This document shows positions 9,555-31,253 of a DNA stretch of 64,000 bases, piece by piece. The notes under the pieces are model-generated. The model was not told the DNA's origin and searched no databases. It saw only the letters and a list, made by a program, of their open reading frames with translations. Source of the stretch: Fibrobacter sp. UWR2 (GTDB lineage: Bacteria; Fibrobacterota; Fibrobacteria; Fibrobacterales; Fibrobacteraceae); assembly GCF_002210285.1 (NCBI RefSeq), contig NZ_MWQE01000001.1:806001-870000 (forward strand), given 5' to 3'. Every line of letters begins with the position of its first letter. Positions within the stretch are counted from its first letter, which is position 1. Both the position numbers and the translations under genes were made by a program.

Positions 9555-9564
9555 AGGAGATATC

Positions 9565-9903: not shown

Positions 9904-9932
9904 TAGTTCTTTCTTGATTTTAGTTTATACAG

Positions 9933-9962
9933 AAAAACACCCGCAAGCCTGCGGGTGTTTTT
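9933..9962. terminator. Bidirectional terminator between the zinc-ribbon operon and rpsD
   Basis: A 13-bp perfect stem (9933-9945 with 9950-9962; core CACCCGCA/TGCGGGTG) has a 4-base AGCC loop, with five A on one side and five or more T on the other. It can serve both convergent units. Confidence 0.92.
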
Positions 9963-9990
9963 CTTTCCAAACTTGCGTTTGTAAGGTCTA

Positions 9991-10596
9991 CTACCTGGAG
10001 TAGTATTCCACGACGAGCTGTTCTTCGAGCTTGACCGGGATCTGTTCGCGGAGCGGGAGCTTCACGAGCGTACCTTCGATCTTGTTCGTGTCGACAGTCA
10101 GGTATTCAGGGGCGGCCGGAGCGTTGGCAGCGGCTTCCTTGATCTGAACGTGTTCCTTGGACTGCTCGCGGATAGCGATCACGTCGCCGGCCTTGATCTG
10201 GCGGGCCGGAGAGAAGCTACGGACGCCGTTCACGGTGAAGTGGCCGTGCGTAACGTACTGACGGGCAGCAAAGATTGTACGGGCGAAACCCATGCGGTAG
10301 ACGAGAGCGTCAAGACGGGTTTCAAGAAGAATCATCAGGTTATCACCGGCAGAACCTTCACGACGGTTAGCTTCCTTGTATGCCTTGGCAAGCTGAGCTT
10401 CGGAAATGTTGTAGGTGAAACGGAGACGCTGCTTTTCGACCAACTGCTGCTTGTAAACGGAAGCAGACTTCTTGCGGTTCTGACCATGCTGGCCAGGAGC
10501 GAAGTTACGGCGATCGAGCGCCTTCTGAGTCTTCTGAGAAACGGCAATGCCCAGGGAGCGGGCGACCTTGCCTTTCGGTCCACGGAAGGAGGACAT
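9991..10596 (-). CDS. rpsD: 30S ribosomal protein S4
   Basis: A 201-residue S4. It binds 16S rRNA and nucleates 30S assembly; S4 domain at about 92-155 (METRLDALVYRMGFA-type segment, then QYVTHGHFTVNG). The N-terminus MSSFRGPKGKVARSLG lacks the four Cys of zinc-binding S4 (C-minus form). RRNFAPGQHGQNRKK is the conserved N-terminal rRNA-binding loop. The ATG at 10596 follows GAGGTATAAT. The gene stands alone: no rpsM, rpsK, rpoA or rplQ flank it, so it lies outside the usual alpha operon. Confidence 0.97.
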   Translation of the reverse strand: MSSFRGPKGKVARSLGIAVSQKTQKALDRRNFAPGQHGQNRKKSASVYKQQLVEKQRLRFTYNISEAQLAKAYKEANRREGSAGDNLMILLETRLDALVYRMGFARTIFAARQYVTHGHFTVNGVRSFSPARQIKAGDVIAIREQSKEHVQIKEAAANAPAAPEYLTVDTNKIEGTLVKLPLREQIPVKLEEQLVVEYYSR

Positions 10597-10675
10597 ATTA
10601 TACCTCTTTGAGGAAGCTCTTTGGTTCAGCTTGCAAATTGGCAGAGCTTGGCGCGACTTGCAAGATTAGGCCCCA

Positions 10676-10703
10676 AAAATAGCAATCCTGGGGCGAATTT
10701 CAA
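10676..10703 (-). promoter_or_regulatory. Candidate sigma70-type promoter for rpsD
   Basis: Read on the minus strand: TTGAAA, 16 bases, TATTTT, about 80 bases before the rpsD start. The match is 5/6 and 4/6 to the consensus; the spacing is one base short of optimal. Confidence 0.35.
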
Positions 10704-10728
10704 GGCTTTTGCCGTTTTTAGGGGCAAT

Positions 10729-12438
10729 TTAGCGCACGTTTATGGTCAAAGTGTCCCTCATGAGGGGGTCCGCCATGCTTTGGGCGATGAGCCTGGCGTC
10801 CTTGTCGGCGGCATCCTTCTGCGCGATAAGGTAGAAGGATGATATTTCCTGTTCGCCCTTGCAGTTCTCGAGCTGGCTTATGTAGGCGGCGTTGCCGAGC
10901 GTGGTCAGGTCTTCGCAGGGGACGAACCACTTGACGTTGTAGCTAGTCTTGTAGGGGACGGTCTGGAAGGCGAAGTCGGAGAGCATTACGGTGTCGCCGG
11001 GGTTCACGCGCTTGCTGCTGTAGGTTTCGTCCTTTGCCTCGTTGTAGAACTTGAGGGAGTCAAGCGACCCGGGCCTCTGGATGAACGTCCTGAGGGTGAG
11101 GTTCGAGTCGGTAAGGGCCTTGGAGTTGAGTTGCAGGTAGCGCAGGTACACGGGCCCATCCTTCTTGGCCTTGAAACTGTGGGAAAGGCTGCTAATCGTG
11201 CCCACGGAGTCGCCCTTGGCGTCGATGAGCCAGTACGATGCCCTCGGGGTGTCCTTGCATTCCAGATACTTGCAGTAACCGTCCATCTCGTGGTACACGA
11301 CGAGGGAATCTCCCTTCTTCAGGTCGGCGAGCCACACGTAGTGGTCCTGGCGCAGGTAGTACTTGGTGGAGTCGTTTGCGGGGCGCACGATGGTGAGCGT
11401 GTCGCCGGGGTACACGATGGAGTCGGGGTTTGCCAGGTATTCGCCCTGGTTCAGCCTGCGGAAGCGGGTTGCCGCCTCGAAGGTCGCGAACGGCCCGTCA
11501 AGGAAACTCACGACGTTGCTCGGGTACAGCGACAGTGTCCATTCGGCAGAATCGTTGGTGACAAGCAAAGTGTCGAGCGTGTCGGTAGCGGGGGAATAGA
11601 CGTTCTTGTCCGTGTCGACGAGTTCGTACTTGTTGATGCTGTAGCCCTGTACGGAGAGGTTTACGCTGAAACCGGTTTCGACCTTGAAGGCGATGTCGAT
11701 TTTCTTCGGGGCCTCGCCGATGAGGAGGATGCCGCGTACGGTGTCGCGCAGGTCAATGCTGACGTGCGCGGAATCGCCCGTGTAGTTGTAGTAGCCGGTA
11801 TCAACGTCGGCCTTGATGCGCAGGTGCGCTGAAGAGTCGAAATCTGCTGCGAGGTCGAGGTAGTAGAAGTCGTCGTTGAATGCAATAAAGCTGTTTAGGA
11901 GCATGTCGGCGCCGGAACCCGGAACCATGTAGTTGCTATAGACGGAATCCTTCTTCTGGGAATTGTACACGGGCATGAGCGTGCGGAGGTTGCCGCTCTT
12001 TTCGCCTCGGATACGGATGGTGTCATTTTCCATGCCGCTAGTGGCTGCAAGTACGGTTATGCGCGTGCCCTTGGGATAGTCCCCGAGAAACAGCGAGACG
12101 GTCGTGCTGGTGCTGTCGAGGCACACGATGTCATCGTGGCAGATTTTTTCGATATAGGTAGAATCCTTGGCCTTCTTGCCAGTGGAATCCTTTTTGCCTT
12201 TGATGGTGACGGTATCCCAGGTCGCGAGTTCCATGTAGAAATTCATCGTGTCGCCCGCGGTGAGTGTGTCGCGGTAGTCGATATCCAGTCTATCGCTAAT
12301 CGAAGAACTGGACTTGAACGAGTCCTCGGCATAGCTGCCGTTGTCGTCGGTAACGGACGATGAATTTGTGTGCGAGGTCTCGCTACAGGCGAAGAACACG
12401 GGGATTACTGCAAATAGGGCAAGGATTTTCGTATTCAT
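10729..12438 (-). CDS. Large surface lipoprotein of unknown function
   Basis: A 569-residue protein. MNTKILALFAVIPVFFAC|SETS is a lipoprotein signal with Cys18, then a Ser/Asp-rich linker. The rest is beta-rich, with recurring short segments such as DTLTAGDTMNFYMEL, IVYPGDTLTIVRP and VNPGDTVMLSDFAF. This suggests several Ig-like or jelly-roll modules about 100 residues long. No catalytic motif is recognised. A TTG at 12453 is possible, but the ATG at 12438 starts the signal. It lies 21 bases after the double beta-helix gene and is probably cotranscribed with it, so it may bind the same polysaccharide or anchor the larger protein (inference). Confidence 0.75.
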   Translation of the reverse strand: MNTKILALFAVIPVFFACSETSHTNSSSVTDDNGSYAEDSFKSSSSISDRLDIDYRDTLTAGDTMNFYMELATWDTVTIKGKKDSTGKKAKDSTYIEKICHDDIVCLDSTSTTVSLFLGDYPKGTRITVLAATSGMENDTIRIRGEKSGNLRTLMPVYNSQKKDSVYSNYMVPGSGADMLLNSFIAFNDDFYYLDLAADFDSSAHLRIKADVDTGYYNYTGDSAHVSIDLRDTVRGILLIGEAPKKIDIAFKVETGFSVNLSVQGYSINKYELVDTDKNVYSPATDTLDTLLVTNDSAEWTLSLYPSNVVSFLDGPFATFEAATRFRRLNQGEYLANPDSIVYPGDTLTIVRPANDSTKYYLRQDHYVWLADLKKGDSLVVYHEMDGYCKYLECKDTPRASYWLIDAKGDSVGTISSLSHSFKAKKDGPVYLRYLQLNSKALTDSNLTLRTFIQRPGSLDSLKFYNEAKDETYSSKRVNPGDTVMLSDFAFQTVPYKTSYNVKWFVPCEDLTTLGNAAYISQLENCKGEQEISSFYLIAQKDAADKDARLIAQSMADPLMRDTLTINVR

Positions 12439-12459
12439 ATTCGTACCGGTCAAAATGCG

Positions 12460-15400
12460 TTAGTTGAGGATAAAGAACTTCTGTTCGGCGTTGAATGCCT
12501 CGCCGATGATCTTGAGGGTGTACTTGCCAGTGGGGAACGCCTTCGCCTTGAACTTGAAGTTGGTCTTCTTTTCGCCGGCGAGTTCGCGGGCGGCAACGGT
12601 GAGCATGCGCTTGCCGGATTCGTTCACGATTTCAATCTGCACGAACTGCGGGTAGCCCACGGTCAGGTCGAAGTTGCATTCCAGGTTCACGATGTCGATG
12701 TTCACCTTAGAGAGCGTGTAGCCGCCGTCCATCGCCTCGCCGCCCACGGAGCGGGAGTTGTCGTAGTACCCGACATAGAGCGAAGGCGCAGAATTCTTGC
12801 CTGCGTTTCTTGACTTGATAAATGTCTCGCCGGGTTCAACTGCGGTGAGGATAATCGTGTAGAGTCCGGATGCGTGTTTCCTCTTGAAGAATTCAGTGAG
12901 CGTTGGAGTGCGCAGGAAGGCGCCGAGCGGGGCCTTCGGGTTGATGGTGATAATTCCGAGGAAGTCAGCATACTTGGTGTCGATGCCGCCACCGGAGTTC
13001 TTGCGGATGTTGAACTGTCCGCCGGGCTGGTCGAGGTTAGCCGGAGCGTTTTCCCAGGTGAGTTCGTCGCTCCTCCAGTCAATGCCCTGCTTGTCCTCGC
13101 CGAAGGTAGCGTCTTTCGAGGTCTCCTTCAGGCCGAATATGTTGAGCTGTACGGGCTTCTTGATGGAGTCGGTATCGAAGTCTAGCTTGAGGGCCGCGTC
13201 GAACAGCGGACCTGGGAGCGCAGATAGGTCGAACTTGAGGTAAATCTTGCCGGCATCGTTCTTGTCGTTTGCCACGCGCAGGTTCTCGTCGGTGCTGTGC
13301 GGTGAGTAGTTGTCGAACTGCGAAATCCAGGCGTCCATGCCGCGACCGCTCGGAATATTGTCTCCGCTATGGTCGAGGGTAGTGTAACGCTTGTCGAACA
13401 CGTAAACCTTGCCTGTGTCCGTACCTTCGGTGTATCCGTCGTTTGCCTTGAAAAGCAGGTTGTAGCGCCCGCTGGCAGTAAACGTCACGTCGGTCTCGTA
13501 TTCCAGGGAATCGGAGAAGGATACCTTTCCGGGGCCTGCGCCCTTTTTCCAGACCACGGGAACGCGGCAGAGTCCGTCTCCGCGACCGTCGTCTTCGACG
13601 GAGCCGACAAGATGTAGCTTGTTGGGCTGTACCAGAATGTTTTCCCTGGACACGCTAGCCTTAGGAGGTTCGTTCTGACCCTGCTTGGGGGCGTATCCGG
13701 TGTAGAGCGCCATCATCACTCCGCCCGACTCGTTGTGGGGAAGGTCCGTGTTTTTGAGGGAGTAAACCTTCGAGCCCTGACGGGATTCCTCGACAACCTT
13801 TGCGTAGGGGTTCCCGCGGGTAAGCGTTTCCTTGAGGCCTACGATGGAGATGCTTGAGTTGTCGTTGATGAACATCGGGGTGTTCTTCGCCTTGTCGCTT
13901 GCAATGACGTTCACGCCCAGGAGTTCCGCGGAACCCTTGTTGAAGTTGTGGAGGACCGTGTTGCCGTCTTTTGCGGTAAGGCCCAGGATCCAAATGGACC
14001 CGCCGTTGTTCATGATCTTTGGCCCCTTGGTGTCGCCCGTCATTGTAATCTGGCGGCCCCACAGGCGCTGCTGGCTTGTCTGAATGGTGCCTACGGCGAC
14101 GTCTTCCATGAAGATGTCGCCTGTGGAGAAGTCGTCGGACTCATACGACTTGAGGTACATGTTCTTGAGAATTACGGTGCGCTTGGAACGGTTCGTGATA
14201 CCGCTTGCAAACGTGGAAAAGCGCTCGATGGTGATGTCTACGAAGGCTCCGTCCTCGATGATGAACTTGCCCTTGCCGTCGATCTTTCCTTCGGTACCGA
14301 TAAGCCTGTGGATGCGGTTCCTGAGGTAGATATCGCGGTTGATGGTCCAGCGGCCTCCCGGTGGGAAGAATATGGTCTCGGCACCGTCGTCGATGGCGTC
14401 CTGGATGGCCTTGGAGTCGTCCGAGCCGTCGTTCGCCTTGCCTCCGTATTCGCCGGTGATGGAAGTCCAGTACATGGACTTCTGCTCGGGGTTGCTCGGG
14501 GTCTCGGTGACAGCGAGCTTCATTGAGTTCTTGGGACTGTGGCAGAGCTGGTGGTTCGCCTGCGTGGAGAATTCGACAATCTCGGTATTGGATATGGACT
14601 CGTTATAGGCCTTGTGTGTGCTCTTTATCTTGGACTTGTACTTGCTGACCACGACAGCGCGCGCAAACAGTTGCCCTTCGTTTACGATGGCGGTAATCGG
14701 CTTTGCGGCCTTCTTGCCCGGGTCGTATTCCAGGGTTCCATCTACGAGGACCATCGATGCGTCCTGCCCATGGTTGTAGATGGCGGTCGAACCACCCTTG
14801 TAGCGAAGCCCACGGATGGAAAGCATCTGGCCGTCGTTGTCGAGACCGAATTTTTTCTGGCCGCCGAGAGTCAAGTGCTCGAAGGTCATGCTGTTCGATG
14901 TGCCGGCGGTGTAGACGCCCACGTCGAACCCGTCGACTTCCACGTTCTTGAGGAGCAGGGGGCCGATGTTGTCGGTGAAGCCCAGGTCGATACCGTAGAC
15001 ACCCGCGCTGTCGCCCGAGAAAACTTTCACATTGTTGATGGTTCCCTGTATGGCGGCGTTGAATCGGATACCGATGGCGCCCGGATTCTTTTTTCCGGTG
15101 CGGAGCGTGAGGTCGCGGATGGAGTTTCTCTGCCTCGGGTTCGGGCCATCGCCCGTGTAGATGACTGCTTGCGGGAAATCCGGGTTCTCGAAACCGGGAA
15201 CGTCGTCCTGGAGGGCGATGATGGTTCCGCCCATGCTTTGACCCTGGAGGATGGTGCGGCGGTAATCCTTTTCGGGCTTGCCGTTGGCCGAAGGCCACAT
15301 GAGCGCCGATGAAATCTTGTAGATGCCGTGCGGGAGGTAGATGATGTAGTCGCCGTCCGGATGGTCGTTCAAGGCACGCTGTATGGCCTCGGTATCATCG

Positions 15401-17752: not shown

Positions 17753-17975
17753 GGTAAACTTCCCTTTTTGCCAAACAACAACCCGGAATGGGTTCGTTTC
17801 TATTCAAAAAGTTACCAAGAGTTATCCGATTTTTTAGGTTATTTTATGCGGTTTTTGGAAAAAATTACATTGATAATTGGGCGGATTTGTTCCGTTTGGA
17901 ACGAAAGCGGACGAAAACAATCCTGTTGCGAAATTGACAACATTTTGTGCAATCAAAAAAAACTACATTGAGGTT

Positions 17976-19604
17976 ATGATTCTTGTAAAATCACGCACTC
18001 TGGCTTTGGCGACGGCCTTCATGTCGCTACTCCCGTTGCAGACACTTGCTGCATCTCCTGTTGTGGGCGTGGAACGCACGCATAACTTGCGCACGCTCGA
18101 AATGGCTCCGATGCTGTTCGAATACCACAGGCAGACCGTGGGCAGTGAACGCCAGTTCTTTACCTACCCGAGGCGCGATACTTCGTTTATCCGGCACTTT
18201 ACCGAAACGGAAGGCAAGGCGCTACTTTATTACGATAACTTGCGGGGCGGTGCGATTGCCGGGCGAGGGCTTGAACTTAAGTGTCATGAGGGCGATAGCG
18301 CTTGCGTCAAGAATCAAGAAGCCCTTGGTGCAGGGCGCCTGCCGAAGTTTGGTATTGCGACGAGTGTGGTGGGTGGCATTGATTACCGTGCCGGAGAGTA
18401 TGTTAACGACATCGACCGCCGTAGAGGTAAGTCGATGGGTGATACCATTTGGCCGAGTATCGATGGTGGTATTTACCTGCGCGGCTATGCTGATTCGCTA
18501 GAATTCGTGCTCGATGCCCGCATATACGATGAAGGCCATTCTGCAGTAAAGCCGAGGTCTTGGGACCGAGAATTTTTGGAGGTCCAGCGCGAAGAAAATA
18601 ATTCTGGAGTTGAATACACTAGCTATGCACGATACCGTACGCATTTCGCATTCAACTACGACTGGATTCGCGTTGACCTTGCCCGCGACGTGTTGCACTG
18701 GGGCCCTGGCTACTACAACAACTTGAGCTTGAACCAGTTTGCGCTCCCGTATAACATGCTTTCTGTTGATTTGCAGTTTGGCCCGCTTCGCGTATTCAGT
18801 TTTTACGGCGACCTGCGTATTGTAAATAATAGCATGAGCATGGACAATAAGGAAGACCGCAATATATTCGGCCATCGTTATGAACTTGCTATTGGAAACG
18901 GAACTTTCGGCATCAGCGAACTTACGGTTCTCTATGACAACCTGAAGCCTTGGCTTTTTGTTCCGACGGTGCCGCTGTTCATGGAAAAGGGTAACTATAG
19001 CGAAAATTCCAATAATGGTTCTCTTGCGTTTGACTTTAACTACCGATTGTTCAACATGGCGAGAATTTATACGGAATTTTTCTTGGACGATATGGAATCG
19101 CCCATAAGCCTTGTGAAAAACGATAACATCGAAGCCAAGTGGGCTTGGATGGTCGGTGCGCAGGTGGGCCATGACTTTATAGTGAAGGGGCATTTGCTAG
19201 AGGTGGGCTCCCTCGCAGAATATGCGCGCGTTGAACCCTATGTGTATTCGCATTTCGTGAAAAATACGGCGCAGATAGCGCATCTCGGTTACCCGCTTGG
19301 GAACCAGGGTGGCCCCAACAGCCAGACAATCGACTGGAATGTTTATGCACGCCTAGATAAGCATATTTATGCTTCGCTTCGCAATACTTGGTTCTGGAAG
19401 GGTAAGGATTACGGGAGCGCTGTGAACGATACGACTCCGGCCCATAACCACATGAAAATTCCAAAGAAGTTCCTTGATGGCGCGAAAATGCAATACTCGC
19501 TTACGCCTGCGATTAGTTATGAAGGGCAGTATGTGAGTTTTATGGGCGAGATAACCTTCATTGATGACCGCAAGGCGTATATCCGCGCCGGCTTTAAGTG
19601 GTGA
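17976..19604 (+). CDS. Outer-membrane beta-barrel, capsule assembly Wzi-like
   Basis: A 542-residue protein. MILVKSRTLALATAFMSLLPLQTLAA is the signal peptide. The remainder is made of alternating amphipathic strands ending in the aromatic-terminated IRAGFKW typical of OMPs. The run DWIRVDLARDVLHWGPGYY resembles the conserved FGR..WGPG region of Wzi, the outer-membrane lectin that holds capsular polysaccharide at the cell surface. Upstream in-frame starts (for example at 17877) would add a non-signal extension; the ATG at 17976 has TTGAGGTT before it. It is five bases before the U32 gene. Confidence 0.72.
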   Translation: MILVKSRTLALATAFMSLLPLQTLAASPVVGVERTHNLRTLEMAPMLFEYHRQTVGSERQFFTYPRRDTSFIRHFTETEGKALLYYDNLRGGAIAGRGLELKCHEGDSACVKNQEALGAGRLPKFGIATSVVGGIDYRAGEYVNDIDRRRGKSMGDTIWPSIDGGIYLRGYADSLEFVLDARIYDEGHSAVKPRSWDREFLEVQREENNSGVEYTSYARYRTHFAFNYDWIRVDLARDVLHWGPGYYNNLSLNQFALPYNMLSVDLQFGPLRVFSFYGDLRIVNNSMSMDNKEDRNIFGHRYELAIGNGTFGISELTVLYDNLKPWLFVPTVPLFMEKGNYSENSNNGSLAFDFNYRLFNMARIYTEFFLDDMESPISLVKNDNIEAKWAWMVGAQVGHDFIVKGHLLEVGSLAEYARVEPYVYSHFVKNTAQIAHLGYPLGNQGGPNSQTIDWNVYARLDKHIYASLRNTWFWKGKDYGSAVNDTTPAHNHMKIPKKFLDGAKMQYSLTPAISYEGQYVSFMGEITFIDDRKAYIRAGFKW

Positions 19605-20953: not shown

Positions 20954-21406
20954 ATGGCGGTTGATGAAGCGACAAAAAAGCAAGACGAGTTGGAGTTATA
21001 CCAAATTGACGACAAGGCTATTGTTCCCTTTTTTAGGGAACACTTGGAGGATTTGAAAAAATTCCTCGATTCCCACAAGGGCGAAAACTTATCGCTTCTG
21101 GAACTTTTGAAGCAGTTTATACGCACATATCGTCTTCCATTTAACATGCATCGTTATATGGAAGTACAGCGAACGTTCATACAACAGACACTGCGTAGCC
21201 AGCTTGAGAACCGCCAGGCGGCGGTGAGCAACTGGATCCAGGAACATGCGGGTAGGCATCGTGACCGCATGATCCAGCTGCAGTGCCTCTACCTCGAGCG
21301 TATCAAGGATTCGCTGATTCCTCAGGTGAAGGAATTGCTGGAACATCGTATAGAAGCTCTAAAAACAAGGGAATCAGACCATGATAATTCCCAGGGTGCC
21401 GCGTAG
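20954..21406 (+). CDS. Hypothetical helical protein
   Basis: A 150-residue, charged and predicted all-alpha cytoplasmic protein (FFREHLEDLKKFLDSHKG; QTLRSQLENRQAAVSNWIQE; ERIKDSLIPQVKELLEHRIEALK). No family recognised. It has no signal peptide. The ATG at 20954 is 27 bases after the U32 stop, and ATTTGTGGC precedes it without a strong Shine-Dalgarno. A hairpin with a U-tract follows (21435-21477). Confidence 0.6.
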   Translation: MAVDEATKKQDELELYQIDDKAIVPFFREHLEDLKKFLDSHKGENLSLLELLKQFIRTYRLPFNMHRYMEVQRTFIQQTLRSQLENRQAAVSNWIQEHAGRHRDRMIQLQCLYLERIKDSLIPQVKELLEHRIEALKTRESDHDNSQGAA

Positions 21407-21434: not shown

Positions 21435-21477
21435 ATTTCCACCAGAAACAAGTTCAGCGTTCTAGTGGAAATTTTTT
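21435..21477 (+). terminator. Terminator/attenuator-like hairpin abutting the start codon of the AlgX-like gene
   Basis: A 13-bp inverted repeat with one mismatch (21435-21447 ATTTCCACCAGAA; 21460-21472 TTCTAGTGGAAAT) has a 12-base loop. It runs directly into a T run (21472-21477), and ATG is at 21478. The only purine-rich candidate ribosome binding site (GTGGAAA) is inside the 3' arm. It may terminate upstream transcripts, attenuate entry into the operon, or hide the ribosome binding site. Confidence 0.65.
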
Positions 21478-23490
21478 ATGACTTTTTTTTCAAGAAAGCA
21501 AAATTTATCGTGCATTGCTCCTGCGATGTTCTTTTCGGGGGTTTGTGCTGTTGCTCTTTCTTTCGGGCTGAGTGCCTGCGCCTCGGGTGATTCCCCGAAG
21601 CCCGCGACAGAATCGACGGCGATCCCCGCAAGTGTGTCGGGCGTGACGGCGTTACCGGTGGATTCGATGGTCCCGACGACCGTATTCGAGATGAAGGTCG
21701 TGGATGCCGACAGGCAGGTGCGTGTTGTTAGCAAGCCGACGCTTGCTGCTCTTGACTTTGCTGCTTACTTCGTGAACCCGATTCGCCTTGCGGGCAAGGA
21801 CGAAAGGCCCGAGAACTACAAGGGCGTGAAGGCTGGCGCGAAACTTGCCGAATACCCGTTTCCCATGCTGGACTCGCTTTCGGAATACGAACCTGCTGCT
21901 GTGGCAGGGCGCCAGCCTATGGCCTGGGAACCTCTTTCCAAGATTCTCTATGCGCAGACGGGTAACGATTCTCTAGCCCAGATGCTTGGTGCTATCGAGG
22001 CGGTCAAGTGGGACGAACCTGAGGTTTTCCGCGCTTTCCAGAGCGTAAGCCGCCTCTGGGGGATCCCGATGAGCGATGGTTCCGTCGAGTGGTGGGCAGA
22101 GGTGATGCCCGCACCCTGGACGGGGCGAACTGCGTTCTATGGAAGGTTGAAGTATGCATCGCGAGGTGAGACTGCCGAGGTGCTCAACTACTACCTGACT
22201 GCCGAGATGAATGCCGATGATGCCATGAACTGGGCGCGCACGCTTTCTTCTTACTGGTACCCGACGCTCAATACCGACCTGGAACCGCATACACCGGGAA
22301 GTTTCTGGCCAGAGGGCTCCAAGATGCAGCCCTTTGCCGTGATGCGCGGAAACCCGATGGGGAAACCCATGTGGATCGCTTTCGAGGTGCCTGCGTTCCG
22401 CCTGAGTGCAGAACAGCTCCGCGCGAAGGCCGTTGCCGATTCGCTTGCGGCTGCGGGCGAGGTGGTGCCGGTGAACCGCGCGCTCGACAGGGATTCCTCC
22501 TTCAGACTTTCGACGATTGCCTCGCTGGAAGGCAGTTGCCCCGCGAATGCAGAGACGGCGAAGTTCCGCACGGCACTGGAAAAGACGCTTGCGAAACTCC
22601 CGAAGGAACAGAACGCCTGGGCGACTGCAGGTGCATCGCCCGCGGAGACCTTCCTCTGGTTCCGCCGCAATGCGAACTACCTGCTTGCAGACAAGATAAC
22701 AGGGCAGGACAGCCTGCACAATCCGCTCCCGCGCCTGCTGGAACTTAAACACTACCTGGATTCCATCGGGGTGCAGTTGCTTGTGGTTCCTGTTCCCGTG
22801 AAGGAAGAAATTTACGGCGAGCGCCTTGTGGCAGGGACGCCTGCTGACCTCTGCGTGAACCCCGCGGGCCGCGAGTTTACCCGCGAGATGCTTGCTGCAG
22901 GGCTTGACGTACTCGATATCTACCCGGCGCTCATGGCGGCCAAGGCCGGCGACGAGCCTCCGCACTTTAGCTACCAGCGCTATGACACGCACTGGGCTCT
23001 CCCCGGAATGCTTGCCGCCATGGAACAGCTTGCCGCCCGCGTGACGCAATACGCATGGTATGGCGATGCCGGCGCCCAGCCGGGCTCGCTCAACATGCAG
23101 GAGACGACTACGATGCGCGAGGGTGACCTGGTGGCGCACTTGCCTGATGCCGAGAAGGCGAAATACCCCGCGGACACCTTGCCCGTAATGAAGATTCTCA
23201 AGGGTTCCGAACCCTACAAGGGCGGCAAGAATGCGCCTATCCTCCTGATGGGCGACTCGTTCACGGGCGTATTCGAGTCTGTGGACCAGAAGAGTGGCGG
23301 GCCGGGTTCGCTGCTCGCCTACGCGACCGGCCTCGACGTGCAGGTGCTGACCAGCTGGGGCGGCGGCCCCGGTGTTTATCACCGCATGATGAAGATGAAG
23401 AAGGATATGCAGAGCAAGAGACTCGTCATCTACATGATGACCGCTCGCGATTTCTGGCAGTCCCCGATGGAATGGGATGCGTTAAGGTAA
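21478..23490 (+). CDS. AlgX/AlgJ-like SGNH-hydrolase domain lipoprotein
   Basis: A 670-residue protein. Its lipoprotein signal ends FGLSAC|ASG (Cys about 34). Residues about 395-660 have the AlgX/AlgJ SGNH fold: LWFRRNANYLLADKITG, LLELKHYLDSIGVQLLVVPV, the catalytic Asp-His in YDTHWALPG (Asp503, His505) and the nucleophile Ser594 in LLMGDSFTG. AlgJ/AlgX O-acetylate alginate in the periplasm; relatives modify other polysaccharides. Residues 40-390 are unlike anything I recognise, with several Trp-rich stretches. It is the first of five tightly spaced genes. Spacing to the next gene is one base. Confidence 0.8.
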   Translation: MTFFSRKQNLSCIAPAMFFSGVCAVALSFGLSACASGDSPKPATESTAIPASVSGVTALPVDSMVPTTVFEMKVVDADRQVRVVSKPTLAALDFAAYFVNPIRLAGKDERPENYKGVKAGAKLAEYPFPMLDSLSEYEPAAVAGRQPMAWEPLSKILYAQTGNDSLAQMLGAIEAVKWDEPEVFRAFQSVSRLWGIPMSDGSVEWWAEVMPAPWTGRTAFYGRLKYASRGETAEVLNYYLTAEMNADDAMNWARTLSSYWYPTLNTDLEPHTPGSFWPEGSKMQPFAVMRGNPMGKPMWIAFEVPAFRLSAEQLRAKAVADSLAAAGEVVPVNRALDRDSSFRLSTIASLEGSCPANAETAKFRTALEKTLAKLPKEQNAWATAGASPAETFLWFRRNANYLLADKITGQDSLHNPLPRLLELKHYLDSIGVQLLVVPVPVKEEIYGERLVAGTPADLCVNPAGREFTREMLAAGLDVLDIYPALMAAKAGDEPPHFSYQRYDTHWALPGMLAAMEQLAARVTQYAWYGDAGAQPGSLNMQETTTMREGDLVAHLPDAEKAKYPADTLPVMKILKGSEPYKGGKNAPILLMGDSFTGVFESVDQKSGGPGSLLAYATGLDVQVLTSWGGGPGVYHRMMKMKKDMQSKRLVIYMMTARDFWQSPMEWDALR

Positions 23491-23491
23491 G

Positions 23492-24262
23492 ATGCTTGCC
23501 CGCCTCTCGTCGTTATTTTCCCGATTCTTTTGGCCGCTGTTGCTAATCCTGCTGGCGGTATCGCTCTCGCTCGTGCTGTGGACGGGACGTCCCGAAAGCG
23601 CGAAGTACGCCGAGATGGCGTGTACCTTCGAGAACCGCGCTCCCACATGCATTGATAGCGTTCGCGACTGGCGTGAAGGCCTTGCCTTCTATGACAGTAA
23701 TTTGTCTGTAACGCGCGATCCGCTGGCCTCACTGAAGTCGCTCCTGTGGGATTTCTGGAATATCGAATTTGCTGGGGCGGGCGAGGCGGCTGTTTCTGCG
23801 GAGGCGATCCTCCCGCTGCGGGTACTTGAAACCCGGAAGTCGGGCTGCATGGGGCTTTCGTGGCTTGCGATGATGGTCGCCGAAGCCCGCGGAATTCCGC
23901 TTGATGTGATTCTCCTGCCGGGGCACGTGTATTTGCGCTATGGCAAGGATGACGGCCGTGCGCAGGCCGGATTCGCTCCGAAGACGGTGAACCTGGAACC
24001 CAACCGACGCGGCTATACCTACTCCGATGAGGAATATCGCAAGAAGTACAAGGCGGGTCGCTGGACCGGCCTTGAGTTCAAGCCGCTTTTGCCTGCGCAG
24101 TTTATGGGCCTTGCCGCATTTGATATGGGTAACTTGTACCTGCAAACGGATCCGTCACGTGCCTTGCGCTGGTACCGGCTGGCCGGAGACCTTTTCCCTG
24201 AGTATCCGGGAATCGCCGAGAACCAGAAAATAGCGAAGAGACGCCTTCCGGACTCGCTTTAA
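23492..24262 (+). CDS. Membrane-anchored transglutaminase-like protein (SirB1 N-type)
   Basis: A 256-residue protein. Residues about 13-31 are one TM segment (FFWPLLLILLAVSLSLVLW), leaving a periplasmic domain. RVLETRKSGCMGLSWLAMMVAEARG with Cys119 and LPGHVYLRY with His145 match Transglut_core2 (the N-terminal domain of SirB1-like proteins). The end (YLQTDPSRALRWYRLAGDLFPEYPGI) is one TPR-like helix pair. Such domains may cleave or cross-link peptides, or be non-catalytic. Co-located with an AlgX-like protein and large lipoproteins, so it probably acts in the same envelope process (inference). Confidence 0.75.
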   Translation: MLARLSSLFSRFFWPLLLILLAVSLSLVLWTGRPESAKYAEMACTFENRAPTCIDSVRDWREGLAFYDSNLSVTRDPLASLKSLLWDFWNIEFAGAGEAAVSAEAILPLRVLETRKSGCMGLSWLAMMVAEARGIPLDVILLPGHVYLRYGKDDGRAQAGFAPKTVNLEPNRRGYTYSDEEYRKKYKAGRWTGLEFKPLLPAQFMGLAAFDMGNLYLQTDPSRALRWYRLAGDLFPEYPGIAENQKIAKRRLPDSL

Positions 24263-24298
24263 CCGGTCTGCACATTTCAAATAATCTATTTTAGTGAC

Positions 24299-27115
24299 AT
24301 GCGACCCGATTCGAAGAACGAGGCCCTTTTTGCTGTACGCGCTTTGTACGCCCTTCTAGGCGTATTCTTGTGCTGCATGCTGTGTGGAGTGCTTGGTGCA
24401 TGTTCCAATTCGGAATCGCTTTACTCTAGTGATCCGGGCGATTCGCGGTCTGTCGTTGAAATAGTCACCGATTCGCTCGAAGGCTTGTTGCGTGTGAAGG
24501 CGACCGGTAAGGCGACCGTTCTGGGCTCGGATGAAAGTTCCCGCGCCATGGACCGCCCGACGTTCATCGCCGAATTTACTTACGATTTTTCGATGGGCCG
24601 GCACGAGGTCTCGTGCAGTGAATTCAACGCGCTAATGGAACGCTCAACGGGGCTTTCGCTGGATTGTGCCGATAAGGATTTGCCCGCGACGGATATCACC
24701 TTTTACGATGCGGCGCTCTTTGCGAACGAACGCAGCAAGGCTGAGGATTTCGATACGGCGTACACCTATGTCGGCGCCTTGTTCGACGCCAATCACCATT
24801 GCATAAACTTGGAAGGTTTTGCATTGCGCACCGAGGCCGATGCGTACAGGCTTCCGACCGAGGCGGAATGGGTGCTTGCCGCACGGCAGAAATGGGATGT
24901 TGCGAAGGGTTGGACTGCGGAAAATTCGGATTACAAACTGCATGCGGTCTGTGGCAAGGCGGACAAGGGAGAATTCTGCGATATGGTGGGGAATGCCATG
25001 GAATGGGTGAACGATTGGCTTGGCGTTTACAGTTCCCGCAGGTTTTGGAACTTAGTCGGCGCGCCTGATGGAGGTTCTCTCGGGCAGCGCGTCGTGAAGG
25101 GCGGTAGCTATCGCAACGAAGCATCTTCTATCGCCCTTTTCACACGTGGCGACGTGTATGCGGTCACGTCTTCGACACGCGCCGATTATGTGGGGTTCCG
25201 CCTGGCATTTGGTGCGATTCCCAATCCTTCATGGCTCAGCGGTGACGGCAACGCTCAAGAAAGCAGGGTCATTCCGCTCGCGAATTCGTCGACGGTGCGT
25301 GCTAAGACTGGGACATACCGGACCAAGCTTGTTTTCCGTAATGATGTCTCGGGAAGCCTTTCCTATATCAACTACTCCAGCGGGGAACTTTCCGTGGTCG
25401 GATTGCCCGACTCGCGCGATGCGTACCATCCGGATATATCGCCCGACGGAAAATACGTCGCGTACTGTACGGGACTCGAGGGCGTTTCTGGCAAATCGTC
25501 TGTTTTTGTTCGGCCGTTAAGCGCGGATCCGGAGGTATCTTCCGTAAGGCTCGATGTGAAATCTGCAGCAATCCCTCGCTGGCGCGTTCTTGAAAGTGGC
25601 GATACTGCAATCGTGTATGTGACCGATGCGGGTAACAACAAGGATGAATCGACTTTCCGCGCGACATCCACATGGCAAGTGGTTTTTAAGGCAGGCAAGT
25701 TCGGCTCTCCCGAGAAACTTTTTGACGGCGCCTATCACGACGGAATCAGCGAAGATGGTTCGCTTGCGGTTTCGGGGGCGAGGCTCCTGCGGGCCCGCGT
25801 TGCGGAATCGGGCTCGTCAGTTGCGGGTTCTGCCCGCGATACGGTCTGGTACGGTGGCGAACAGGCGTGCAACGTGTCGCTTGCAAAGGATAGTTCCAAG
25901 CGCAGTCTTTTTCTCGATTTCGGCGGGAAGACCGGTCGTGAATTTGTGGGCGAGGATTACGGGACGCATGAACGCCTCCTCATTATCGACAGTACCGGGA
26001 ACTTGGTGCAGTCTGTTGCCGCTCCGGCGGGTTATTCGTTTGACCACAGCGAGTGGGTGATTGGTGCCGATAATCTTGTCGTTGCAACTCTCACGAATGC
26101 AGGCGGAGCTCATTCGAAGATTGTCCTCGTGAACCTCACGGATTCTTCCATCGTGGAACTTGCCGAGGGTGATGAACTCTGGCACCCCGCCATCTGGGCG
26201 ATGCAGGGAATCCCTGCTGCCGAAGATGCCCTCCTCGATCCGGACAGTGCCGGAGTGTATCTTGTTCCCGGTCTTGACGCCCTGCACCAGTCTATGCGCG
26301 TGAAGATGGAACTCTTCTGGAATAATCACGAGAAAATTGAATATATCCTGGTCGGCAGTTCGCGCGTCGAGGACGGACTCATTCCCGATTCAATCAAGGC
26401 GGGCTATTCCCTGAATATGGGGCATCCCTGGAACTCGATGGATGCATCGTTCTATATTGCAGAGAACTACGCGATGAACCATGCGAAAAATCTGAAGGCG
26501 GTCGTGTTCTCGCTAGACTTTGACTTGTGGCAGAACTACGACAACGTAACGAGAATGCTGATAGATGGCGTGCCGGGATACGTCTACGATGAACATCACG
26601 ATTTTTGGAAGTCAGGTCTACCCGATGCATTTGTGGACAAGGTGAATGAGTGCCTGCCTGCAAGCGAAGCCTATAGGGATGCGTATGTCGATAGCCGCGG
26701 GTTTAATTCCAAGCCGGCTTCGTCGTGGAGCGATCCGTTTGTTGAGACGGATTCTACCTGGACCACTACAAATTCATGGTTGGTCGGCTGGCAGATGAAA
26801 AGGCTCCGCAGTTTCCTTGAGAAGGCGGAAGAACGGGGGGTATATGTTGTCGGTGTCGTGTTCCCGCAGAATCCGCGGTATCGTGAAACCGGTTCGTGGG
26901 GGCGTTATGGACCAAGACGTTCCGAAATGCCTGCCCTGCTCGATTCCATGCAAGTGCTGCAAGAGGAATATGCAAACTTTGTTCTCATGAACGAGAATAA
27001 GATGGGTAAGCACGACTATGCCGATTCCATGGCGCAGAACACGGATCACCTCGCATTCCCGGGTGCCCTGCAGTTGACCCGCCGTTTAGATTCTTTGCTG
27101 GAAACGCTCAAATGA
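24299..27115 (+). CDS. Giant lipoprotein: FGE-like + beta-propeller + SGNH-like domains (TIGR02171-type Fibrobacter paralogous family)
   Basis: A 938-residue lipoprotein; the signal ends GVLGAC|SNS (Cys about 35). Residues about 60-305 are FGE/sulfatase-modifying-factor-like: FSMGRHEVSCSEFNALM, FYDAALFANERSK, YRLPTEAEWVLAAR, MVGNAMEWVNDW, VKGGSYRN and DYVGFRLAFG. The Cys pair of catalytic FGE is absent around GGSYRN, so it is probably a binding domain. Residues about 315-650 look like a TolB/PD40 propeller (YHPDISPDGKYVAYCT; IPRWRVLESGDT). From about 675 there is an SGNH-like domain with GSSR (686-689) and Asp916-His917 in NTDHLAFPG. Family name from memory; function unknown. It ends in an ATGA overlap with its paralog. 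Confidence 0.78.
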   Translation: MRPDSKNEALFAVRALYALLGVFLCCMLCGVLGACSNSESLYSSDPGDSRSVVEIVTDSLEGLLRVKATGKATVLGSDESSRAMDRPTFIAEFTYDFSMGRHEVSCSEFNALMERSTGLSLDCADKDLPATDITFYDAALFANERSKAEDFDTAYTYVGALFDANHHCINLEGFALRTEADAYRLPTEAEWVLAARQKWDVAKGWTAENSDYKLHAVCGKADKGEFCDMVGNAMEWVNDWLGVYSSRRFWNLVGAPDGGSLGQRVVKGGSYRNEASSIALFTRGDVYAVTSSTRADYVGFRLAFGAIPNPSWLSGDGNAQESRVIPLANSSTVRAKTGTYRTKLVFRNDVSGSLSYINYSSGELSVVGLPDSRDAYHPDISPDGKYVAYCTGLEGVSGKSSVFVRPLSADPEVSSVRLDVKSAAIPRWRVLESGDTAIVYVTDAGNNKDESTFRATSTWQVVFKAGKFGSPEKLFDGAYHDGISEDGSLAVSGARLLRARVAESGSSVAGSARDTVWYGGEQACNVSLAKDSSKRSLFLDFGGKTGREFVGEDYGTHERLLIIDSTGNLVQSVAAPAGYSFDHSEWVIGADNLVVATLTNAGGAHSKIVLVNLTDSSIVELAEGDELWHPAIWAMQGIPAAEDALLDPDSAGVYLVPGLDALHQSMRVKMELFWNNHEKIEYILVGSSRVEDGLIPDSIKAGYSLNMGHPWNSMDASFYIAENYAMNHAKNLKAVVFSLDFDLWQNYDNVTRMLIDGVPGYVYDEHHDFWKSGLPDAFVDKVNECLPASEAYRDAYVDSRGFNSKPASSWSDPFVETDSTWTTTNSWLVGWQMKRLRSFLEKAEERGVYVVGVVFPQNPRYRETGSWGRYGPRRSEMPALLDSMQVLQEEYANFVLMNENKMGKHDYADSMAQNTDHLAFPGALQLTRRLDSLLETLK

Positions 27116-29793
27116 TACGCTTGTTTTTATTGATTGCCCTTTTTGTGATCTTGGGTTGTTCGAATTCGGAACTGCCCTATATGGCAACAACATATGAGTC
27201 GCTTGAACAGGACGACGGCATGATTCTTGTGCGTTCGGCCGGAAACGAGACGATTCTCGGGACAAATAGTCGTAAGGCATTGCCTTCGGTGTGTCCGAAA
27301 ATGAGGGTCAAGTTTACCTATGACTATTATATCGGCAAGCGTGAAGTTACCTACGGGGAATATGGAGATGTCCTTGGCAAGGAATACGATCCCGAGATTC
27401 TGGATCAACCTGTCGTGAACGTGACTTTTTTTGATGCTGCCCTATATGCGAATGCGCTGAGTAAAAAGATGGGGCTCGATACGGTGTATACCTATACCGA
27501 TGCCATATTCGATGGTAGCGGTAACTGCGTCTCGTTGCTCGATTTTACGACGCATTTTGATGTGGAAGCGTATAGGCTCCCGACTGAAGCGGAATGGGTG
27601 TATGTCGCGAGGCAGAACTGGAATGCTAAATGTGTCGATACCTTGGACCGGCCCTGCAACTTTATCGGCGGGGTCAAGGAGTGGGTGAATGACTGGATGG
27701 GCGCCTTGAGAAGTGCCGTCTATAAGAACTATGTAGGAGCCTTCAATGGCGGCCTGCTCAATACGAGAATCCTCAAGGGAGGCTCCTTTAGGGATAACCC
27801 CGATGACGTCCGCGTATATAATAGGACGGATGTCTATCAGGTAACCGCCGACATGAAGGCGGACTATGTCGGATTCCGCCTGGCCTATGGAATTATCCCG
27901 AACCCGACAATGACCGACAACAAGGGATTTGCTGTTCATGACGATGTGGACGTCTCCATTTCTTCCGATGCGTTCCGCTCGATGTTCGGGACAATGAACG
28001 GCAAGATTGTCTTTAGGAACGAATCTTCCGGAACCCTCACGTACGTCAATTTTATCAGTGGAAATCCAGTCGTATACGAGATTGACGATTCCCTGGATGT
28101 CTACCATCCTGCCGTATCGCCCGATGGCAAGTTCGTTGCGTTCTGTTCCTTGCCGGAAGGTGTTGCGGGTGAATCGAATATCTATGTCCGCTCGCTTGAT
28201 GTCACGAGTAGCGTGGTCCGGAAACTCGAACAGGTCCACGGTTCGATTCCCCGTTGGCGCGTGCTTGAAAATGGCGATACGGTTATCGTCTTTGTCGACT
28301 ACAATGGAAACAACAAGAATGAGGCCGCATACCAGTCGGCAACGACTTGGCAGGTTGGCTTTGCTCAAGGAATGTTCAAGAAGTTGACCAGGGTTGCTTC
28401 CGGAGCTTACAATGGCGGAATTAGCGAGGATTGGCGCTTGGCTGTTTCTGGTGCCCGCATGCTACGCGCAAAGAGGGCCGATTCGGGAATGTCGTTGCTC
28501 GATGTGGAACAGGACGAGTTCTGGTATGGTGGCGAACAGGCTTGTAATGCTAGCCTTGCCCTAGATGGAACCAAGCGGACGTTGTTCCTGGATTTCGGTG
28601 GCTATACGGGGCAGGCTTTTGCGGGCAGGAAGTATGGTACGCACGAGATGCTCCTTGTTGTCGATAGCCTAGGAAAACTTATTCAGGGAATTCCTGCGCC
28701 GGCTTCGTATAGTTTTGACAATACGGAATGGACGAACCGTAAGGATATGGTTATAGGGACGCTTGTTGACAACGAAGGCGTCCATAGCAAGATTGTCGCG
28801 ATCAATCTGAAGGATTCCTCGGTGACGGACCTTGTCGAGGGCGTCGACATCACGTATCCAGACCTGTGGATGGGAAATGCGATTCCTGTCGAGGAAGAAA
28901 ACGCGCTTTCGCCCGATAGCGCAGGCGTGTACATGTTTGCTGGCGGCAGTATGGAAATGTCTCTGTACCGCTACAAGATGGAACTGCTGTGGCGCTACCG
29001 CGATTCTGCAGATGTGGTGATTCTCGGCTCGTCGCGCCCGCTTTCCGGGATCGATCCGACCATCATAAATTCCTTCTTTGCGGTAAACCTATCACAGACG
29101 CCGAATTCGATGGCTCAGTCGCATGATTTCTTTGAACGCTATGTCCTGGGCAACGTGACGAACCTGCGACACATCGTCGTCTCTCTCGATATCGATTTCT
29201 GGTGGAAGGTCGGGGACGATGACAACCTGTTCTACGATCGCTATAAGCTCTATCCGGGATATGTCTACGACGAGAATCACAACTATTGGAAAGATGACCG
29301 TGATGTGAAAATTCTGGAATTCACGATGGCCTCTGTGGGTACGGAAGAAGCCGACAAGATAATGTTCCATCGCGGGTTGTATTCGACGACTGGCCAGGGT
29401 TGGGACGATTCGCCGACTATTCTGTACGATAGCACATGGTCTCGTACCGACCGCAAGAAGTTTTATAGCAATCTGGGTGTCCTGGAGGACATGATAAAGC
29501 TTGCTGCCGAGAATGGGGTTGATGTTTTTGGAGTTATTTTCCCGCAGAACCCCGCATATGCCAATACGGGTTCCTACGGGCGCTACGGTATCAGGCGAAG
29601 CGATGCCCCTGAACTTATTGCCGAGATTGCGGCACTGGAAAAGAAGTACGCGAATTTCCACTTGATGGATGAAAACAAGATGGGTGAACACGATTATACG
29701 CCATCGATGGCGGCTAATGATGACCATCTGAATCTTTTTGGTTCGCGCAAACTTTCGGGTAGATTGAATACCCTGCTTCAGAAATACCGGTAG
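27112..29793 (+). CDS. Giant lipoprotein, tandem paralog of the preceding gene (TIGR02171-type)
   Basis: An 893-residue lipoprotein with a short signal MIRLFLLIALFVILGC|SNSE. The same three parts follow in the same order: an FGE-like domain (YIGKREVTYGEYGDVL, YRLPTEAEWVYVAR, GGVKEWVNDWMG, KGGSFRDNPDD, DYVGFRLAYG), a propeller (YHPAVSPDGKFVAFCS; IPRWRVLENGDT) and an SGNH-like domain (ILGSSRPLSGI; ANDDHLNLFGS). The middle segment FWYGGEQACN...LD.T.RTLFLDFGG is nearly identical to that of the neighbour, showing a tandem duplication. The active-site-like Ser and Asp-His are kept in both copies, and again the FGE Cys pair is missing. It overlaps the upstream gene by 4 bases (ATGA) and the next gene follows after 2 bases. 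Confidence 0.78.
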   Translation: MIRLFLLIALFVILGCSNSELPYMATTYESLEQDDGMILVRSAGNETILGTNSRKALPSVCPKMRVKFTYDYYIGKREVTYGEYGDVLGKEYDPEILDQPVVNVTFFDAALYANALSKKMGLDTVYTYTDAIFDGSGNCVSLLDFTTHFDVEAYRLPTEAEWVYVARQNWNAKCVDTLDRPCNFIGGVKEWVNDWMGALRSAVYKNYVGAFNGGLLNTRILKGGSFRDNPDDVRVYNRTDVYQVTADMKADYVGFRLAYGIIPNPTMTDNKGFAVHDDVDVSISSDAFRSMFGTMNGKIVFRNESSGTLTYVNFISGNPVVYEIDDSLDVYHPAVSPDGKFVAFCSLPEGVAGESNIYVRSLDVTSSVVRKLEQVHGSIPRWRVLENGDTVIVFVDYNGNNKNEAAYQSATTWQVGFAQGMFKKLTRVASGAYNGGISEDWRLAVSGARMLRAKRADSGMSLLDVEQDEFWYGGEQACNASLALDGTKRTLFLDFGGYTGQAFAGRKYGTHEMLLVVDSLGKLIQGIPAPASYSFDNTEWTNRKDMVIGTLVDNEGVHSKIVAINLKDSSVTDLVEGVDITYPDLWMGNAIPVEEENALSPDSAGVYMFAGGSMEMSLYRYKMELLWRYRDSADVVILGSSRPLSGIDPTIINSFFAVNLSQTPNSMAQSHDFFERYVLGNVTNLRHIVVSLDIDFWWKVGDDDNLFYDRYKLYPGYVYDENHNYWKDDRDVKILEFTMASVGTEEADKIMFHRGLYSTTGQGWDDSPTILYDSTWSRTDRKKFYSNLGVLEDMIKLAAENGVDVFGVIFPQNPAYANTGSYGRYGIRRSDAPELIAEIAALEKKYANFHLMDENKMGEHDYTPSMAANDDHLNLFGSRKLSGRLNTLLQKYR

Positions 29794-29795
29794 AA

Positions 29796-31253
29796 ATGAT
29801 TTTTGTCGTATTCCTGATATCATTTCTGTTTGCCCTGTTTCCGCTGACGGATACGGACATCTGGTGGCATCTGGCGTGCGCGCGCGAGTGGGTGGTGACG
29901 TGGAGTCCCGTCCGTGAAGGACTCCCGAATATCCACGAATATTTTCAGCAGGTTGTTTACTCTGTGTATTGCATAGGCGGAGCGCCGCTGCTTGTGGTCT
30001 TCAAGGCTCTCCTGTGGGGCTCCGTGTTTGCATTGTTCTTGTTCCCTGCGGGTTTGCGCAATCGTCCTAAATCTATTGTAGTGGCGGTTACCGTATTTTA
30101 TTTGTTTGTATTCCGCTACCAGCTGGAAATGCGTCCGGTTGTATTTACGCTCCTGTTCCTCGGTGTGTACTGGAATGTTGTGCCGTGGCTGCTTGTACGG
30201 CTTGCTTCGGGCGATAAGCATGCTGCGGACCGAGTGAAGACCTTCCTTGTGGCGTTTGCCCTGCTTTTGCTGCAGTGGCTCTGGTGCAAGTTTCAGGGGT
30301 TATACATCCTGGGCCCTCTCTTTGCGCTGCTGTGCCTTGCGCATGCGTTGTACAGGAATCGGACCGTGCAACGAACGTTCCAGATGGCTGCGCCTATCGT
30401 ATTTGTAACGCTACTTTTTGCGATGCCCCTTTTGCATAGTGAAGGCGTGCGCCTGTTCCTTTACCCGTTCGGACTCCTGGACCGGCTGCTAGGCATTTCT
30501 CCTTCCGCAGCAATTTTTGCAAGCGAAATTGCGGAGAACCGTAGCCCGCTCACGCTTCTTATGGCGGGCGAAAACTTGTTTGCGTCGGTGTTTATGCTTG
30601 CTGTTGTGCTTTTTTCGTTGGCGTATTCCTTGGTAAACCTGTTCAAGTATCGTTGCGATATGGTTTTGGATGTGAGTTTGTTTGTAACGTCGATTCTTGC
30701 GCTTGTTGCCGAGCGGAATTTTGTGCTGTTGTTCCCGTTGTTTATTGCGGTACTTTGTTCTCCGCGGCCAGAGATTCTCCGTTTGCCGGATTTTGCGGCG
30801 ATGGGGCCTGTGGTACGTGTGTCTCCTGTTGTCCTTGTCGCCTGTTTGCTTGGGTTCTGGGCAAAATCGCTTGCAGCGTACGACATGCATATGGTCGCCT
30901 ACCAGCGCGTGCCTGTGGGTGCTGCCGCCTGGATGAAGGCTCACCCTCATGAGGGCAGGCTTTTCAACGATGACCGTGCCGGCGGCTACCTCGCGTTCAT
31001 GAACCCGTCGGATTCCATCTATATCGACGGGCGTTTCATACTCAAGACGGCGGACTTTTTCGAACGCTACCTGCGCTATTCCGCCGAACCGTCGCTGTTC
31101 CTTTCCGATGCCGATTCCCTGGGGGTCGATCGGGCGCTTTTCCCCCTGCGTTACTATGCCCGCTGGGGAACTGTCATAAAAGCCCTCGAAAAGTCCCCGG
31201 ATTGGTCAACAGCCTATGTTGATGCATACTTTATTGTTTTCGCGAGAAAATAA
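29796..31253 (+). CDS. Multi-spanning membrane protein, GT-C glycosyltransferase-like
   Basis: A 485-residue protein with about ten hydrophobic segments. The start MIFVVFLISFLFALFPLTDT is followed by DIWWHLACAREWV: an acidic motif plus WWHL in the first external loop, as in GT-C enzymes and related D.D.WWHL..G proteins. The C-terminal soluble part has GRLFNDDRAGGYLAFM and SIYIDGRF, conserved in this group of uncharacterised membrane proteins. GT-C enzymes use lipid-linked sugars on the outer face of the inner membrane. If so, it would supply or extend a glycan handled by the AlgX-like and SGNH lipoproteins of the same operon. The start is two bases after the previous stop. No terminator hairpin is evident after it. 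Confidence 0.65.
   Translation: MIFVVFLISFLFALFPLTDTDIWWHLACAREWVVTWSPVREGLPNIHEYFQQVVYSVYCIGGAPLLVVFKALLWGSVFALFLFPAGLRNRPKSIVVAVTVFYLFVFRYQLEMRPVVFTLLFLGVYWNVVPWLLVRLASGDKHAADRVKTFLVAFALLLLQWLWCKFQGLYILGPLFALLCLAHALYRNRTVQRTFQMAAPIVFVTLLFAMPLLHSEGVRLFLYPFGLLDRLLGISPSAAIFASEIAENRSPLTLLMAGENLFASVFMLAVVLFSLAYSLVNLFKYRCDMVLDVSLFVTSILALVAERNFVLLFPLFIAVLCSPRPEILRLPDFAAMGPVVRVSPVVLVACLLGFWAKSLAAYDMHMVAYQRVPVGAAAWMKAHPHEGRLFNDDRAGGYLAFMNPSDSIYIDGRFILKTADFFERYLRYSAEPSLFLSDADSLGVDRALFPLRYYARWGTVIKALEKSPDWSTAYVDAYFIVFARK

Follow-up and report, generated by a model that had tools for sequence, protein, structure and literature searches.

The DNA analysed here, called the window below, is a stretch of 64,000 nt from Fibrobacter sp. 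UWR2 (GCF_002210285.1, contig NZ_MWQE01000001.1, positions 806,001-870,000), and coordinates are counted within it unless a contig is named. Five open reading frames (ORFs) lie on its plus strand, with gaps of 1, 36, -4 and 2 nt between successive genes in the ORF listing, exactly as the first-pass annotation of this DNA had described them. The first, AlgX1 (21478..23490, +), encodes an AlgX-family SGNH acyltransferase-like lipoprotein of 670 aa with a lipobox cysteine at Cys34, and the second (23492..24262, +) a membrane-anchored transglutaminase-like protein (TG) of 256 aa with a Transglut_core2 domain. Two large lipoproteins of the TIGR02171 family follow: F1 (24299..27115, +; 938 aa), with a pseudo-FGE (formylglycine-generating enzyme) domain, a TolB-like propeller and a probable SGNH domain, and F2 (27112..29793, +; 893 aa). 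The last gene (29796..31253, +) encodes a polytopic membrane protein of 485 aa with a predicted GT-C fold and a C-terminal soluble domain. Dozens of Fibrobacter loci repeat this gene order, and with its conserved catalytic residues the operon is more than a chance arrangement.

AlgX1 carries the Pfam AlgX domain (PF16822) at residues 410-632 (E 1.7e-18; 67.7 bits against a gathering score of 26.5), preceded by an unassigned N-terminal domain at about residues 80-390. Its translation holds the DTHW motif of Block V, a D-x-H motif (D503-T-H505-W; 22984..22995, +), and further on the GDS nucleophile motif (G592-D-S594; 23251..23259, +). The triad of D503, H505 and S594 is invariant in all 46 homologues aligned, D593 is invariant as well, and the DTHW and GDS motifs are conserved. 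A D-x-H ahead of the serine reflects the circular permutation of the AlgX family (PMC9487903), and AlgX1 shows this permuted order. A phmmer alignment to AlgJ (4o8v; E 0.014) spans the DTHW motif. There is no AlgX-type C-terminal carbohydrate-binding module (CBM); the SGNH domain reaches the end of the protein and the extra domain is N-terminal. AlgX1 is therefore not AlgX proper, but its membership of the family through the SGNH domain stands. The transglutaminase-like protein matches PF13369 (Transglut_core2, E 3e-9 in Pfam), has a hydrophobic N-terminal segment as read from the sequence, and its Cys-His-Glu triad (C119, H145, E169) is invariant in 54 of 54 homologues. The homologue alignments show catalytic residues intact in both these proteins and in AlgX2, a second AlgX-type protein encoded elsewhere in the genome. 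The locus had been proposed as an envelope glycan-modification operon, and this is supported, as is an AlgX-type SGNH protein, whose D-x-H and GDS are both intact.

The last gene product of the operon gave no Pfam or NCBIfam match. Its structural model has a predicted local distance difference test score (pLDDT) of 89.2 and a predicted template modelling score (pTM) of 0.90, and the best Foldseek match is DPY19 (7.2e-6), then STT3, AglB, PglB, ArnT and AftD. Each of the 10 matches below E 0.001 is a GT-C enzyme or a domain of one, and so are those that follow down to rank 17. Judged by this model, the product of 29796..31253 has a GT-C fold, in agreement with the assignment that had been made from the letters. 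D21, H47 and Q51 near its start and D411 and R413 are invariant (D21 in 30 sequences), and D21 is the conserved Asp in the first outer loop expected of the GT-C superfamily. A GT2 gene near many of the ancestral clusters described below is suggestive only, as a hint of a polyprenyl-phosphate-sugar donor for this protein.

The two lipoproteins had been described as a combination of FGE, propeller and SGNH domains. The first two domains were recovered by fold search and the third is probable, but the architecture is not unnamed, as it is that of TIGR02171. F1 scores 1231 bits and F2 981 bits against the full-length NCBIfam cut-off of 544, and they are therefore members of a catalogued lipoprotein family without assigned function. 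The two are 43% identical, and the UWR2 genome holds six full copies over the cut-off: F1, F2, two at contig C7, one at C1:104 kb and one at C1:224 kb. Lone paralogues lie in G000:C1:216000-234000 (L065), beside a GT2 and a CotH-kinase gene, and in C1:96000-114000 (L066), with an S13 carboxypeptidase/amidase gene and the plant-fibre genes GH43/SASA/CBM6 as neighbours.

Pfam finds the FGE domain (PF03781) in both F1 and F2. In the F1 model (mean pLDDT 90.3, pTM 0.83) the FGE/C-type-lectin-like domain at residues 54-306 (24458..25216, +) has a VIA-align Z of 27.4 to variable protein 1 of Treponema denticola (2y3c) and of about 21 to formylglycine-generating enzymes, with Z 20-27 across the matches of this fold test. 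The two active-site cysteines of the enzyme are absent; F1 has no cysteine between KGGSY and GFRLAFG, and none is conserved there in 155 homologues. Without them the TIGR02171 FGE domain is probably a binding or structural module. The TolB-like propeller follows at residues 325-636 (25271..26206, +; Z about 23 to TolB). The C-terminal part is a probable SGNH domain in F1 (residues 660-938; 26276..27112, +), with Ser688, Asp916 and His917, and in F2 (28891..29790, +), where the alignment of C-terminal domains places a GSSR and a DDHL motif; for F1 this is based on invariant motifs, weak Pfam matches and the model. That each lipoprotein has its own Ser and Asp-His had been noticed before, and G48-x-S50 and D278-H279 (alignment numbering) proved invariant in 54 homologues. 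In the F1 model the G-x-S is situated directly behind the first strand (strand-Ser-helix) and the D-H behind the last strand. TIGR02171 members match weakly to DltD (three members, best E 0.0072), DUF1574 (two members, 0.0012) and SGNH PF19040 (0.0068), which all are SGNH families, and the matches lie towards the C-terminal motif in both cases shown. A weak match to DltD also appears in NCBIfam, and in Pfam the DltD similarity stays below the cut-off. Taken together, model and sequence make an SGNH fold of the DltD-like kind probable. The acid stands at -1 to the His instead of the usual -3 of SGNH proteins, and the catalytic arrangement is therefore uncertain. A PDB sequence search with the profile of the C-terminal domain returned chance hits only.

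The five genes had been taken as a system of their own, and they do form a conserved operon, but they are only part of a pathway, because its MBOAT, AlgJ-like and propeller partners, all missed at first, sit elsewhere in the genome and are co-inherited. Deeper Fibrobacterota and two genera of the same family have the ancestral order MBOAT-AlgX2-AlgX1-TG-GTC (L053/L172, L074/L160, L083), and Pfam identifies its leading gene as an MBOAT (PF03062). Relatives outside the phylum hold most of the gene set in one cluster, and the records with partial or rearranged clusters bear the names Deltaproteobacteria, Proteobacteria, Myxococcales and Polyangiaceae (L161, L169, L171, L174, L175). AlgX2 is AlgJ-like, with a hydrophobic N-terminal anchor and invariant DTHW and GDS. 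The C-terminal F467-L-Y469-F-Q-F472 (FLYFQF) of the MBOAT is invariant in 10 sequences and fits FXYXXF, the acyl-shuttle motif that hands acyl groups on to SGNH partners (PMC12148441). In UWR2 the pathway MBOAT is found at G000:C1:920439, away from the window operon; it is clustered in relatives and co-inherited. An acyl donor enzyme inside the window operon was rejected, as the MBOAT genes of UWR2 are only at C1:920439 and C4:76078. A second, more distant MBOAT has two GDSL-lipase-like genes alongside (about 9248-14385 of G000:C4:66000-85000, L085), and a distant MBOAT with a similar score is also present in genomes without the pathway.

Clustering of unlabelled neighbours revealed a sixth member, a secreted stand-alone PD40 propeller family that adjoins GT-C in most ancestral clusters and, in many Fibrobacter loci, is found downstream of the operon, a few genes away. 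The UWR2 propeller (G000:C7:8842-10080, L064) stands between the two C7 copies of TIGR02171 and is 65% identical to a GT-C-adjoining propeller of a different genus. Set against this core propeller, the TIGR02171 propeller reaches 70% and P 4e-5 in hhalign on about one blade, which is no more than suggestive of homology. The six core genes are spread over four loci in UWR2 (C1:827-837 kb, C1:920 kb, C7 and C11). In keeping with a glycan pathway, genes that recur around the deep or foreign clusters code for GT2 glycosyltransferases (13 loci), NAD-dependent epimerases of the sugar-nucleotide type (9 loci) and SASA or GDSL esterases.

Conservation was surveyed in 167 Fibrobacterota genomes, and co-inheritance was counted in the 89 that are at least 90% complete; presence was labelled by E-value thresholds read by eye, and for TIGR02171 only long, strong matches were counted as present. 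The gene neighbours, whose conservation across the phylum had been one of the checks proposed, are not confined to this strain. Homologues of TG, GT-C and AlgX1 occur in 100, 97 and 105 of the 167 genomes, where the AlgX1 count includes some AlgX2-only matches. Fibrobacter and near genera usually have the order AlgX1-TG-(TIGR02171)1-5-GTC, and G139/G144 and their kin AlgX1-TG-GTC-TIGR02171. Among the more complete genomes TG, AlgX1, AlgX2 and the propeller are each present in 60/89 and GTC in 59/89. All six core families are missing from the same 15 of 80 Fibrobacter genomes (G064, G065, G072, G073, G085, G087, G106-G109, G114, G115, G124, G127, G132), whose sole MBOAT match is a distant paralogue near 1e-73, compared with about 1e-225 elsewhere. 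The mixed genomes of the genus are few and are the less complete ones (G081, G083, G110, G120, G137). On an RpoB tree of the 80 genomes each core family changes state 9-11 times, and unlinked core families change in the same direction in 5.5-6.0 of 6 independent pairs and in the opposite direction in none (median p 0.031). The six core families are inherited or lost together. Every pathway genome of the genus has full-length TIGR02171, and 13 of the 15 non-pathway ones lack it (Fisher 3e-13, a value that ignores relatedness); on the RpoB tree 51 genomes have TIGR02171 and pathway, 25 neither, two only TIGR02171 and two only the pathway. TIGR02171 genes also occur within the operon itself, and at C7 the propeller gene lies between a further pair of them.

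On balance we favour the view that the operon belongs to a pathway of the MBOAT-SGNH kind, which acylates a glycan, is coupled to a GT-C glycosyltransferase and has TIGR02171 as its surface effector. The composition, conservation, catalytic residues and co-inheritance of the genes and the GT-C fold form the observed basis of this view, and from them we infer a chemistry, an order of steps and a localisation. The operon would supply those components of a dispersed envelope-glycan pathway that work in the periplasm and at the outer membrane. The MBOAT would carry an acyl group, probably acetyl, over the inner membrane and hold it on the Tyr of its C-terminal FLYFQF, from where the membrane-anchored AlgX2 would take it, and the AlgX1 lipoprotein would pass it to hydroxyls of the glycan. 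On the periplasmic face, the GT-C enzyme would draw on a polyprenyl-phosphate donor and attach a sugar to the same glycan or to the carrier of that glycan, while TG and the secreted PD40 propeller may be obligatory partners in maturation or scaffolding. The TIGR02171 proteins would be late effectors at the outer membrane, specific to Fibrobacterota, whose dead FGE domain and propeller bind the finished glycan and whose SGNH domain acylates or de-acylates it.

Several observations weigh against this glycan acylation pathway. The structure prediction and fold search of 24299-27115, proposed earlier as a check, gave the FGE domain and the propeller, but among the matches listed for whole F1 only residues 59-636 were covered, and for the SGNH domain it is the topology of the model that fits. 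When the profile of the C-terminal domain of TIGR02171 was compared with the AlgX2 alignment, the probability was 9% and there was no meaningful match, an outcome to be expected if only one of the two is permuted. For TIGR02171 and the pathway, the independent pairs (4.4 same and 0 opposite of 6; median p 0.125) are not significant and the test is underpowered. The family is kept without the pathway in two genomes of the genus (G065, G132) and one of a related genus (G150), and it is absent or partial in a few pathway genomes (e.g. G006, G018). Co-inheritance shows a shared pathway but not its chemistry, and the glycan, the acyl group and the biochemistry are all putative. AlgX-like SGNH proteins need not transfer acetyl, and the acceptor of the GT-C enzyme could be a protein.

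If it were a protein, the system might glycosylate exported proteins by GT-C and acylate them by MBOAT, AlgJ and AlgX, with TIGR02171 as dedicated acceptors. This would explain the position of TIGR02171 between TG and GT-C and its copy-number variation, with 1-5 tandem copies within the operon, and protein glycosyltransferases, DPY19 and the oligosaccharyltransferases, come nearest in fold to the GT-C model. GT-C folds are however alike at 11-14% identity, and enzymes of the ArnT/AftD type match too. The AlgX/AlgJ/MBOAT systems of known function act on polysaccharides (PMC4148444, PMC12148441), the invariant Ser and His argue for TIGR02171 as an enzyme, and the core is present without it in other phyla, and we find protein modification rather unlikely. 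We consider it quite improbable that only AlgX, TG and GT-C make up a pathway, and that the TIGR02171 proteins just share its operon as surface lipoproteins of an adhesive or structural kind, which might for instance attach the cell to plant fibre. Their FGE domain is nearest to the Treponema variable protein, and several paralogues adjoin unrelated genes, some for polysaccharide degradation, but Ser and Asp-His of catalytic type are invariant in them, they are lost along with the pathway in 13 of 15 genomes, and two copies flank the propeller gene of that same pathway. That the module degrades or remodels a glycan, with SGNH proteins removing acyl groups, is very hard to believe, for although SGNH proteins commonly are esterases and SASA and GDSL esterase genes adjoin the GT-C gene in two foreign clusters, the co-inherited and clustered MBOAT with acyl-shuttle motif and its AlgJ-like partner point to acyl transfer.

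The operon had been put forward as a candidate undescribed one. We found no papers in the literature that name either TIGR02171 or the gene combination, and the claim holds to this extent, but the lipoproteins already are a named family. With some doubt, we put forward that an ancient pathway of six components (MBOAT, AlgJ-like, AlgX-like, TG, GT-C and PD40 propeller), not described before, may make a glycan of the cell surface and acylate it in Fibrobacterota and in some Deltaproteobacteria/Myxococcota, and that the TIGR02171 proteins may form a novel class of SGNH acyltransferases or esterases anchored at the surface, which diversified in Fibrobacter and would complete this glycan. For TIGR02171, a large lipoprotein family with multiple copies in Fibrobacter, itself a major rumen cellulose degrader, there had been no lead to a function before. 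Co-inheritance with a defined gene set for acylation and glycosylation gives TIGR02171 a testable role and six named partners, and as the members are scattered over four loci and yet co-inherited, annotation based on neighbourhood would miss such a pathway. In F. succinogenes, surface O-antigen carbohydrate is reported to fall during growth on cellulose (PMC6851124), and the glycan may therefore, as a speculation, bear on fibre attachment or degradation.

Immediately upstream of the operon is a gene for 150 aa (20954-21406), placed there with its preceding gene in close relatives only (L045, L046, L047). A protein of 575 aa (17877-19604) has the look of an outer-membrane barrel and gave no Pfam or PDB sequence match; its WGPGY motif is reminiscent of Wzi capsule proteins. 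In Fibrobacter the RpoB ORF has about 1434 aa, as opposed to about 1255 aa in relatives that branch deeper, and its match is split near position 551 (e.g. L176), which suggests a large insertion in Fibrobacter RpoB.

In alginate O-acetylation of Pseudomonas, AlgI feeds AlgJ/AlgF and AlgX modifies the polymer (PMC4148444). The most economical reading takes this as a working analogue for the proposed mechanism, as both have an MBOAT, a membrane-anchored AlgJ-like SGNH protein and an AlgX-family SGNH protein with D-x-H ... GDS, that is, two SGNH proteins in series. Unlike the alginate machinery, the clusters show no AlgF or alginate synthase, AlgX1 has a large unassigned domain before the SGNH domain instead of a CBM after it, and the pathway adds GT-C, TG and the PD40 propeller and is spread over several loci in Fibrobacter. 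Given the different AlgX architecture and the three additional core families, the two are not the same system. The C-terminal FXYXXF of the MBOAT is shared with PatA/PatB and DltB/DltD (PMC12148441), and the weak similarity of the TIGR02171 SGNH-like domain to DltD is a further likeness to the latter, whereas three SGNH-type proteins are present here and no carrier protein or DltX-like gene was seen alongside. The GT-C protein has the fold and the invariant Asp in the first outer loop in common with DPY19, STT3/PglB, ArnT and AftD, from which an identity of 11-15% and the missing Pfam and NCBIfam matches set it apart. GldK/PorK and FGE/EgtB have the FGE fold as well, and GldK/PorK is also a lipoprotein, but in TIGR02171 the domain is fused to a propeller and an SGNH-like domain and has lost the active-site cysteines. 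F1 and F2 are full members of a family whose NCBIfam entry gives no function, and which here is tied to a pathway.

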